Shown piece by piece: positions 34,155 to 37,140 of a stretch of 64,000 nt of DNA. Positions within the stretch are counted from its first letter, which is position 1. The number at the start of each line of letters is the position of its first letter. A program made the position numbers and the translations under genes. The notes under the pieces were generated by a model that was not told the DNA's origin, ran no database searches, and saw only the letters and a program-made list of their open reading frames with translations. The DNA is from Rhodospirillaceae bacterium (GTDB lineage: Bacteria > Pseudomonadota > Alphaproteobacteria > GCA-2731375), in NCBI GenBank assembly GCA_018660265.1, contig JABJKS010000009.1:1-64000 (forward strand), in the 5' to 3' direction.

Positions 34155-34982
34155 ATGCAAATCGTTGACGCGCAAGTCCATCTTTGGGGCACAGGTTTGC
34201 CCAGCAACATGTCTCATTGGCAAATAACATCCTTCACGCCTGAAGATGCCATTGGGTTGATGGATGAGGCCGGTGTCCAGGGGGCGGTGATCCATCCGCC
34301 CGGTTGGGATCCACGCTCTACTGAAATGGCCCTGGAAGCGGTGCAAAACTATCCCGGCCGCTTTGCGATTATGGGTTCGGTGCCTCTCGATCAACCGGCC
34401 TCCCGCGATCTCATAGCGGATTGGCGAAAGCAGCCCGGCATGCTGGGCTTGCGATATCTGTTTCTAAATGATCCGGCCCGGCAATGGCTGCACGATGGCA
34501 CCTTGGATTGGCTTTGGGCGGCAGCGGAAGATGCGGGCGTTCCTATTGCGGCCCTGGCGACGAATTGTCTGCCCGCCCTTGGCAAGATTGCCGAACGCCA
34601 TCCCGGACTTCGCTTGACCATCGATCATATGGGTGGCCGGGGGGGCACTACGCCCCTTAAGGACCATGAGGCCATGACCCATATGCCGGAGCTTCTGGCC
34701 CTGGCGAAATACCCCAACGTGGCGGTCAAGGCGACAGGGGCACCGGGCTATTCCAGCGAGGCCTATCCATTTCCGATCATGCATGACTATTTGCACCAGA
34801 TTTATGATGCCTTCGGGCCGCAGCGTATGTTCTGGGGCACCGATATCTCCAAGATGCCCTGTTCATGGCTTGAATGTGTTGAGATGTTTACGGAGCAGTT
34901 GCCCTGGCTGAACGATCAGGACAAGCGTCTGATCATGGGAGATGCCCTTTGCGACTGGTGGGGCTGGGACCGGACCGCCTGA
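34155..34982 (+). CDS. Amidohydrolase family protein (amidohydrolase_2 type)
   Basis: A 275-residue metal-dependent TIM-barrel hydrolase/decarboxylase. It begins MQIVDAQVHLWG, where the usual HxH is QxH as in a subset of this family, contains TIDHMGG (about residue 155) with the barrel His, and ends with MFWGTDISKMP (about residues 225-235) carrying the conserved Asp. Relatives are lactonases, decarboxylases of aromatic acids and ring hydrolases. AGGA lies before the ATG. The next gene starts one base after its TGA. Confidence 0.83.
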   Translation: MQIVDAQVHLWGTGLPSNMSHWQITSFTPEDAIGLMDEAGVQGAVIHPPGWDPRSTEMALEAVQNYPGRFAIMGSVPLDQPASRDLIADWRKQPGMLGLRYLFLNDPARQWLHDGTLDWLWAAAEDAGVPIAALATNCLPALGKIAERHPGLRLTIDHMGGRGGTTPLKDHEAMTHMPELLALAKYPNVAVKATGAPGYSSEAYPFPIMHDYLHQIYDAFGPQRMFWGTDISKMPCSWLECVEMFTEQLPWLNDQDKRLIMGDALCDWWGWDRTA

Positions 34983-34983
34983 T

Positions 34984-36042
34984 ATGGAAAGTCTTGAGGT
35001 ATTAAGTTTGCTGCGGATTACTGCTGAAGAACGGGCCATGATCCAGGCGGTCGATCCGGCGATTAAACTGACCGATGCCGGTGGCTGGTTTGACGGTGAA
35101 ATTCGTGAAACCTGGCCCCCTTTCACATCTGAACGCTATTTGCCGCCTGACGCCAATGGCGCGGGCAGCCAGGAGGAACGCGACAATCTGCTGGCGGAGG
35201 CCGAGGTCATCCTGGGCGGCTGGCCCTTTCTTCTGGATCTGCGCGCCAGGGCAAAAAAGCTGAAATGGTTTCACCAGCGCCCTGCTGGTGCCTCCAATTT
35301 GCTGCGTGGTGATCTGTGGGGCAGTGACGTTGTGGTGACGACGTCACGTGGTTCGGGCAATACCCTGGCCATGGCCGAATACACTGTCGCCGGCATATTG
35401 CATTTCGCCAAGGGCTTGCCCCAGGCCGCTGTCGATCGGGAAGCCGGGCATTTCGATCACCGGGCCTACCGCCCACTTCAGATCCACGGCAAAACTGCCC
35501 TTGTCGTCGGGGCGGGGGGCATTGGGCAGGACGTGGGTAGATTGTGTGCCGCACTTGGCATGCGTGTTGTTGGCACGCGCGGTACCCCGCAGGGCGATGC
35601 GCCGCTGCCTGAGGGATTTTCATTCATCGGTGGTCCGGGCGATCTTGACGACCTTTTGCCGGAGGCCGATTTCGTCGCGATCTGCTGTCAATGGACGCCG
35701 CAGACGACGGACCTTTTCAACCGTGAACGCTTTGCCCTGATGAAACCGGGTTCCGTGCTGGTTAACGTCGCCCGTGGTGAGATTGTGGATGAGAGCGCTT
35801 TGGTCGAGGCGCTGCAACGCAATCATCTTCGCGGCGTCGCCTTTGATGTCTACGTGGGTGAGTTTGAGACCCCGCCAATTGAACAGCTATGGTCGGACCC
35901 TCGGGTACTGATTACGCCCCATATCTCAGCCGCCAGCGATGAGCACCGGCATCGCGCGGTCGAAATATTTTGCCAGAACCTAGCCGCCTACCTTGCCGGA
36001 CAGCCCCTCAGCAATGTTATTGATTGGGAGCGGGGCTACTAG
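34984..36042 (+). CDS. D-isomer-specific 2-hydroxyacid dehydrogenase
   Basis: A 352-residue NAD(P)-dependent dehydrogenase. The Rossmann motif VVGAGGIGQDVG is near residue 175 and the catalytic Arg (NVARGEIVDE), Glu and His (ITPHISA) are all in the second half. It would interconvert a 2-oxo acid and a D-2-hydroxy acid such as glyoxylate or hydroxypyruvate. ATG 34984 directly follows the amidohydrolase stop. It ends the operon: its TAG stop is formed by the TA target duplication plus the first G of a MITE-like element. Confidence 0.87.
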   Translation: MESLEVLSLLRITAEERAMIQAVDPAIKLTDAGGWFDGEIRETWPPFTSERYLPPDANGAGSQEERDNLLAEAEVILGGWPFLLDLRARAKKLKWFHQRPAGASNLLRGDLWGSDVVVTTSRGSGNTLAMAEYTVAGILHFAKGLPQAAVDREAGHFDHRAYRPLQIHGKTALVVGAGGIGQDVGRLCAALGMRVVGTRGTPQGDAPLPEGFSFIGGPGDLDDLLPEADFVAICCQWTPQTTDLFNRERFALMKPGSVLVNVARGEIVDESALVEALQRNHLRGVAFDVYVGEFETPPIEQLWSDPRVLITPHISAASDEHRHRAVEIFCQNLAAYLAGQPLSNVIDWERGY

Positions 36043-36301
36043 CGCGCTTCCGGGCAATTCTGACCCATTTGATGGCATCCACAAGTCATTCGGGTAGGCG
36101 CGTCGCGTAGCGCGATGTGGTTCATCGGGCAAGCGGCGTAACGCATCCGAATGGCTCGTGGGTGCCACCGGAGGCCGCCTTGCCAAGCCCTGTGGCGGCG
36201 TTGCGGTCCTTGGGAGATGCCCCCACATCGCCCAGCGTACCGCGCCTACCCACAGGGCTTGGTAAGGCGGTCAAATGGGTCGCAATTGCCCGGAAGCGCG
36301 C
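36042..36301. mobile_element. MITE-like element with 31-bp terminal inverted repeats and TA duplication
   Basis: A non-coding 260-base element. Its left end, starting GCGCGCTTCCGGGCAATT (36042-36072), and its right end (36271-36301) are inverted repeats matching at 29 of 31 positions, and each is flanked by TA (36040-36041 and 36302-36303). TA duplication is the hallmark of IS630/Tc1-mariner-type insertion. The interior contains two further inverted-repeat pairs, 36074-36093 with 36147-36166 and 36175-36195 with 36250-36270, so the element can fold into a branched cruciform. It carries no open frame and lies between two convergent genes, whose TAG stops both use the flanking TA. It may also terminate transcription both ways. 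Confidence 0.85.
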
Positions 36302-36993
36302 TAATCACCACTCACAATGATTTTGACTAATTCATCTGGCGCACTCAGCATGGGATAGTGGCCGGTGTCAATTTCGTGCCAGCTGGCACCTAAGGTTTCG
36401 GCACAGCGCCGCTGATGGGCCTCGCCGGGGTTGGGGGCCTGGCGGCAATAGATGACGGTGGCTTTCCAGTCTTGCGACCAGAAGCTATCAAGTGCGACTG
36501 GCGATTTGTGAACCGCAATGGGGTGCAAGCTGCAGCGTTCCACTGCCCAGGCCCGCATTTCCGGGCCCAAACTGGCAAACAATCGCCCCTCTGCATCTTC
36601 GCGGGATGGCCCCAAAGCCAGATCGGTGATGATCGATGATGGTCGGGTAACGATATCCGAGACTTTTTCGCCGTTCTGCAGGGCCAAGGCATCGGCAAAG
36701 ACCAATCGGCTGATCCGCTCCCGCGCGCTCTCCGCCACCTTCGCCATGACCATGCCGCCGCTTGATGTGGCGACGAGAACAACATCGTTGAGGTTTTCGT
36801 AGAACAACAGTTGCACGACTTCAGCCGCCTGGGTTTCGACCGTAATGCCTGCGCGCAGGCTACCGGCACGATCGGCACAGCCATCCAGGCTCGGGGCATA
36901 GACCAGATGGCCCTGCGCGCGCAGGCGCTCGGCGACCGGCTGCCAGATCCAACCACCCTGATAAGAGCCATGTAAGAGTACGAACGTTGTCAT
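36301..36993 (-). CDS. Alpha/beta hydrolase
   Basis: A 230-residue hydrolase-fold protein of the pyrethroid-hydrolase/methylesterase-like group. It starts TTFVLLHGSYQGGWIW, the oxyanion-hole HG motif; the nucleophile elbow appears as LVATSSGGMVMAK (about residue 80), a Ser in SSGG, and the catalytic His is in IDTGHYPMLSAP near the C-terminus. ATG 36993 is chosen because GGAG precedes it; the longer frame lacks a ribosome site. Its stop abuts the MITE-like element. It would cleave an ester or lactone, possibly the product of a Baeyer-Villiger monooxygenase. Confidence 0.85.
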   Translation of the reverse strand: MTTFVLLHGSYQGGWIWQPVAERLRAQGHLVYAPSLDGCADRAGSLRAGITVETQAAEVVQLLFYENLNDVVLVATSSGGMVMAKVAESARERISRLVFADALALQNGEKVSDIVTRPSSIITDLALGPSREDAEGRLFASLGPEMRAWAVERCSLHPIAVHKSPVALDSFWSQDWKATVIYCRQAPNPGEAHQRRCAETLGASWHEIDTGHYPMLSAPDELVKIIVSGD

Positions 36994-37140
36994 TTTAATT
37001 CTCCGTAGAACTGTCCCCGAAACCCTAAATGAGTAGAATCTTGCGAAAATGGTCATTTTTCGACAGAATGACGCATCCCCTGTGAACCCAGGTTATAGGT
37101 TCACCTTCCAATGTCAAAAGTTCCTAGTGAGGTTGCCAGC

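Follow-up and report, generated by a model that had tools for sequence, protein, structure and literature searches.

A putative IS630-type MITE bearing a REP-like hairpin pair within changing ends in Rhodospirillaceae bacterium

MITEs are usually regarded as decayed transposons, in which the ends matter and the interiors drift. Those derived from IS630, such as RUP of Streptococcus pneumoniae and the Correia elements of Neisseria, are described as having no transposase gene, terminal inverted repeats, a TA target and IS630-like ends (PMC2229807, PMC2817692), all of which are shared by the element reported here. Insertion into TA with duplication of the TA is described as a hallmark of the IS630/Tc1-mariner group (PMC2170065). 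The other sequences close to this element are the REPs. Published examples, such as those of Xanthomonas, are described with the head GTAGGAGCG and the tail CGCGAC, and the RAYT genes described there are flanked by their own REPs (PMC2817692). Head-to-head GTAG dimers are reported to be common, and REP dimers lying within long palindromes are described in A. variabilis (PMC3733652). GTAG termini are also described as often supplying the TAG stop codon of neighbouring genes.

The window analysed here is a stretch of 64,000 nucleotides from Rhodospirillaceae bacterium (contig JABJKS010000009.1). It holds, between two convergent genes, an element that we consider fairly likely to be a REP-like hairpin pair borne by exchangeable IS630 ends and kept as a folded single strand.

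Anatomy, copies and insertion sites of the element

The features of the locus are listed in Table 1. The palindromic anatomy proposed in a sequence-only reading of the window was borne out: the ends are identical at 29/31 positions (31/33 with the TA), TA flanks both sides, and two nested hairpins lie between them. The coordinates given in that reading also held, whereas its title length of 260 bp had to be replaced by the measured 264 bp. The outer inverted repeat (36040-36120 and 36223-36303; 81 nt) is imperfect, with 78% complementarity, and the inner one (36175-36195 and 36250-36270; 21 nt) is 95% complementary. Folding of both strands as RNA, a check suggested by the same reading, gave -192.3 kcal/mol for the + strand (shuffles averaged -114.1, sd 5.2; z -15.2) and a z of -13.3 for the - strand, and 0 of 200 shuffles equalled the native fold on either strand. 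In a scan of the window stretch with Rfam 15, the best match was MIR918 at 36046-36297, whose 44.2 bits fall short of the gathering score of 268; it was set aside as a chance match to a long hairpin and not a microRNA. The same scan of 8 related loci gave 0 matches.

Table 1. Positions of the features in the window and end classes around the core in the same genome
Feature	Position	Strand	Basis or remark
Whole element, including TA at each side	36040..36303	.	264 bp; sequence, copies, empty site
Left terminal inverted repeat, starting with the duplicated target TA	36040..36072	+	31/33 identity with right repeat
Right terminal inverted repeat, reading inward on - strand	36271..36303	-	End comparison
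Hairpin A	36073..36167	+	Limits from fold and sequence
Conserved ~72-nt unit A, GTAGG head, AAC tail	36084..36155	+	Covariance model R1, 81.2 bits, E 3.6e-16 in window
Conserved linker CCACCGGAGGCCG between hairpins, overlapping their feet	36165..36177	+	Sequence comparison
Hairpin B	36175..36270	.	Arms 36175-36195 and 36250-36270; fold
Unit B, homologous to unit A, inverted	36187..36259	-	R1 78.9 bits, E 1.2e-15; alignment A4
Left convergent gene, 2-hydroxyacid dehydrogenase family (PF02826)	34942..36042	+	TAG from first three bases of element; ORF, Pfam
Right convergent gene, alpha/beta hydrolase family (PF12697)	36301..37056	-	TAG from last three bases of element; ORF, Pfam
End class TAGAGC/TAGCGC	own genome		Nine copies
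End class TACCA	own genome		L328, L329, L330, L334; L335 = 192-bp form
End class TAGTG	own genome		L331-L333
End class TAGACC	own genome		L340, L342

Further copies and an empty site had been predicted, and both were found. The element's own genome contains nine near-full copies, including that of the window, and matches were present in 15 of the 61 genomes searched, among them its own and those of 9 of 10 congeners; the congener G008 had no match in this search. In the congener G006 (L095), the same convergent gene pair meets at a single TA with the element absent, which is a precise empty site. One locus of the own genome (L021, G000:C31:76901) holds a 47-bp palindrome that is hardly more than both ends.

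The survey of target sites (57 + 18 records) yielded 70 distinct TA sites, comprising CTAG (32), TTAA (13), CTAA (11), TTAG (3) and ATAT (11). Since some copies end TATACCAA, the ATAT sites are read as copies of the TACCAA class with the target TA two bases further out. Copies with wrong trimming or odd ends (L156, L169, L180, L198, L215, L219, L235 and L240) were dropped before this survey and the stop-codon survey described below. Insertion would follow a cut-and-paste route, with the TA within YTAR sites as the target.

In relatives, IS630 transposase loci (Pfam DDE_3) have ends of the TAGAGC, TACCAA and TAGTG/TAGTA types. For comparison, 22 IS630 elements were picked from 37 loci by their own end symmetry, which was partly weak. 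Of the 29 MITE representatives compared with the 44 ends of these elements, 22 had left ends that exceeded 500/500 null draws, and the left ends of the remaining 7 were indistinguishable from the null. The best match of a MITE end with an IS630 end, either end considered, was 24/26, and the best of the window copy was only 17/26. The own genome has two DDE_3 matches (L044 and L045), which were rejected as a source of the ends, both being partial and having no matching ends alongside; no intact IS630 with the ends of the element was found in this genome. A same-ended IS630, for which the sequence-only reading had proposed a search, is therefore represented by similar ends in relatives but by no intact element in the own genome, and we infer, rather than observe, that the window copy was moved by an IS630 transposase. 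The nine copies, the empty TA site and the similar IS630 ends in relatives together identify the element as an IS630-type MITE, in agreement with its earlier assignment as a non-autonomous element of IS630/Tc1 type, and it would be moved in trans by IS630-type transposases.

G008 carries 60 matches to an IS630-type end with at most 2 mismatches (e.g. L074, L083, L091 and L123). All three examined border a contig end, hinting at a recent IS630 in high copy number; in L123, the transposase stretch is interrupted by stops.

Stop codons and gene context

As noted in the sequence-only reading, both convergent ORFs terminate at a TAG composed of the terminal TA and the adjoining G of the element. 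That reading held that the insertion had either hit or created both gene ends. When the flanks were rejoined without the element, the + gene ended in TAA and the - gene in TAG; the ends had thus been hit, and creation of stops by the insertion is ruled out here. At the window site, the insertion would have occurred into the TA common to two overlapping convergent stop codons, and both stops are kept, as TAG, because the end base of the element is G.

The stop-codon survey started from 57 + 36 records. Sites had to be unique, to show TA at both ends of the element and to have 300 flanking bases left and right; 63 qualified, and copies lacking one terminal TA (L008 and L009) are not among them. 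At these 63 usable insertions, 38 ORFs of at least 100 aa (raw count) terminate at the TAG of the element, and coding-like base periodicity was present in 31 of the 38, on 28 of the 63 elements. All 38 rejoined triplets were TAA or TAG, a result due in part to the YTAR target preference, because with YTAR targets an in-frame rejoined triplet is necessarily TAR; target choice and terminal G predict the outcome. The element enters pre-existing stop codons and preserves them. An element with G beside its TA can therefore occupy stop codons and leave the proteins unchanged.

Other repeats were observed at similar places. At L303 (G001, about 1999-2133), a different TAGAGC-ended element of ~130 bp lies at a stop codon, and this is the stop codon that bears a copy of the window-type element in G003 (L027), indicating two hits. 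At L101 (G003), beyond the 3' end of the gene orthologous to the + gene of the window, the corresponding intergenic gap bears another repeat with TCCCGCGAAAGCGGGA palindromes, and similar palindromes occur in L083 of G008.

Gene context was assigned at 83 sites by a crude longest-ORF caller, with wrongly trimmed copies still included. The convergent arrangement found at the window recurs among these sites (23 convergent), and the 28 elements located at a coding-like stop codon would likewise suit a mobile bidirectional transcription terminator that is kept for insulating convergent genes. We consider such a role very improbable, since 30 sites are tandem and 9 divergent, the longest T run is 3 on either strand, and no terminator-like site was detected within 35700-36650. 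The bidirectional, intrinsic termination suggested in the sequence-only reading therefore found no support; the GC-rich stem with a T run that defines an intrinsic terminator is absent.

A constant core within changing ends

The interior is the constant part of the element and the ends are the changing part, a feature missed in the sequence-only reading. Pattern scanning of a species-genome collection returned 112 stretches, all of which have titles naming an alphaproteobacterial taxon or 'Proteobacteria bacterium'; the pattern itself forces part of the conservation of hairpin A. The core was found within unrelated ends of the TAGAGC, TACCAA and TAGTG/TAGTA types. Among 114 core matches, 65 were bounded, one of them a duplicate (L178 of L036); the 49 unbounded matches include 32 without room for the pair at the stretch edge and some that are single-hairpin or divergent. 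Single-hairpin copies are L151, L177, L335, L228 and L038, and other ends, read by eye, occur in L228 and L038 (TAACCCGC and TAGCCCGC).

In the own genome alone, one core is found in four end classes (Table 1); among the 15 loci L328-L342, an end pair of at least 21/24 is present in 11 and not in 4 (L336-L339). The covariance model of the ~72-nt unit, which has 72 positions, includes no end sequence and was trained on copies that it later finds, detected 52 units in this genome at E<=0.01. Of these, 40 make up 20 inverted pairs, with a spacing of 103-104 bp in 18 and 112 bp in two. Class-wide, with at most 17 candidates scored per genome, the unit was present in 29 of 289 sampled genomes (own included) and in 24 of 223 genera at E<=1e-4. 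It was absent from 39 IS630 loci, indicating that it is no left-over of those transposons.

A tree was built from the core sequences of 89 elements, ends excluded, after two of the 91 (L169 and L240) had been dropped. It requires at least 6 changes of end class, the minimum possible being 3; because of long branches (a warning for L331-L333 versus the rest and for L350) and a TAGTG class that perhaps merges two differing groups, the 6 changes are indicative. The TAGACC pair nests within the TAGAGC class on well-supported branches. The occurrence of the hairpin pair within several unrelated end sets in related bacteria suggests that the hairpins, not the ends, are kept, and over time one core may have been re-packaged with different IS630-type ends.

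Base changes within the fold were compared in 28 diverse elements (alignment A2, from which L198 and L215 of the 30 rows in alignment A1 were omitted). Double changes were found in 68 of 95 pairs, covariation was 0.557 against 0.173 in shuffles, and 93.4% of the cells paired against 71.7% after shuffling and 36-42% when the partner was slid by one column. The covariation of the outer stem is partly accounted for by the need of both ends to fit one transposase; the hairpin stems (helices 2 and 7), in which 26 of 32 pairs have double changes, are therefore independent evidence.

A further coupling was observed just outside the inner stem, between the position that follows GYAGG and the initial base of the RAC tail. 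Of the 58 units with letters at both positions, 33 have the combination C-A and 25 the combination A-G, with 0 exceptions; the coupling holds in 105/107 by a regex count and in 53/54 in alignment A4. It is not forced by the covariance model, which leaves these positions unpaired. Both sites undergo 10 changes on the best tree, and with 3 independent changes on well-supported branches (sign test p 0.25) the number of coupling events is uncertain. G-U and A-C pairs were also counted (n=31, with the wrongly trimmed L169 and L240 still included). G-U to A-C was 52:11 in hairpin A (H2+H4), 7:4 in its tip and 25:21 in the end stem; in hairpin B it was 6:21 for H7+H8 and, the opposite way, 58:8 for H6+H9 (H6 32:6, mostly one constant pair; H9 26:2). 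Since H6 and H9 oppose the pattern, a wobble bias toward the own strand is taken as suggestive.

Well-matched stems with abundant double changes, the strand-symmetric end stem and the many near-identical copies within a genome would also be produced by an ordinary IS630 MITE, with a functionless interior and with palindromes kept matched, as the DNA is replicated, by template-switch (palindrome) correction. This explanation appears improbable to us: linker, junction and hairpin cores are better conserved (0.74-0.89) than stems and ends (0.57-0.66), the core outlasts the changes of ends, and copying of a complement would not yield C-A and A-G, so that the coupling speaks against palindrome correction. 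As judged from the alignments, covariation in the stems and the coupling in 58/58 units indicate that selection probably acts on the core as a folded single strand, and the selected structure suspected in the sequence-only reading is upheld by the double changes and by this non-Watson-Crick coupling.

Kinship with REPs and comparison with known systems

The two hairpins are homologous ~72-nt units in inverted order, each with a GYAGG head and an RAC tail, like head-to-head REPs. A GTAG-type head followed by a hairpin is present, being GYAGG in most units and of the GGCA/GGTT type in some B units, and the inverted pair with heads outside occurs both in the element and in the own-genome pairs. 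Genes with Y1_Tnp are available as well, with 3 matches in the own genome and presence in 12 of 14 related genomes. Head, tail and order, which recall the published GTAGGAGCG..CGCGAC REPs (PMC2817692), and the Y1_Tnp genes would fit a true REPIN that a RAYT (Y1 tyrosine transposase) mobilises in the form of single-stranded DNA and that became enclosed in IS630 ends, perhaps using both routes. Such a REPIN is, in our view, unlikely, though less so than the ordinary MITE. Published RAYTs are described as having flanking REPs (PMC2817692), whereas the unit gave 0 matches at E<=1 across 33 RAYT loci, and RAYT genes were accordingly rejected as its neighbours; moreover, the unit measures ~72 nt against 20-40 bp, and every bounded copy has IS630-type ends and TA sites. 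The greater length of the unit and its absence from the RAYT and IS630 loci lead us to an IS630-type MITE with a REP-like dimer, not a REPIN. At one locus of the own genome (L134, G000:C78), the palindromes on both sides of a Y1_Tnp gene (GGGGACACAATAC) have no relation to the unit.

In the MITE with a REP-like dimer, the two homologous REP-like hairpins, arranged head to head with a GYAGG head and an RAC tail, would be the cargo and would owe their retention to a function of each unit as a folded single strand. Owing to their inversion, one unit is presented in its own sense by either strand; that selection acts on the single strand is what we infer. The hairpins may act as RNA or as single-stranded DNA. 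Their partner, the least certain part of the reading, could with a somewhat less than even chance be a single-strand DNA enzyme of REP/RAYT type; the other candidate is an RNA factor whose site of action would be the 3' untranslated region. More tentatively still, a structured single-strand element that is widespread in Alphaproteobacteria may persist as its own selected unit by changing carriers, being repeatedly re-clothed by whichever IS630 is at hand; the cargo would then be older and more constrained than the ends, with a dedicated binding partner still to find.

The usual picture of a MITE is reversed here, in that the interior is constant and the ends change, and the covariation, with a non-Watson-Crick pair among the coupled positions, points to a selected folded strand. 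Two testable questions are thereby raised, namely what recognises REP-like hairpins that have no adjacent RAYT gene, and whether a structured sequence can survive through transposase switching.

Compared with known systems, the element lacks the GANTC motif conserved in the CIR repeats of Caulobacter and other alphaproteobacteria, which are likewise intergenic with two arms and a linker but are described as ~110 bp long (PMC2229807); GANTC is absent from the window element and from 61 of 91 elements, and identity with CIR was set aside on the basis of this motif. From RUP and the Correia elements it differs in having a conserved interior that occurs in several unrelated end classes and is absent from the 39 IS630 loci. 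With GTAG REPs and their head-to-head dimers (REPIN, BIME) it shares the GTAG/GYAG head, the hairpin, the short tail and the inverted pair with heads outside, whereas the unit is ~72 nt instead of 20-40 bp, has no RAYT adjacent in the 33 loci, and has feet that extend into stems joined to the ends of several IS630 classes. Among titles and abstract starts of open-access PMC articles, with the subscription literature mostly outside this scope, no description was found of one core in several IS630 end classes. The best reading is therefore an IS630-type MITE carrying a REP-like dimer; MITEs and REPs are both known, and it is the sharing of one core across several end classes that sets this element apart.
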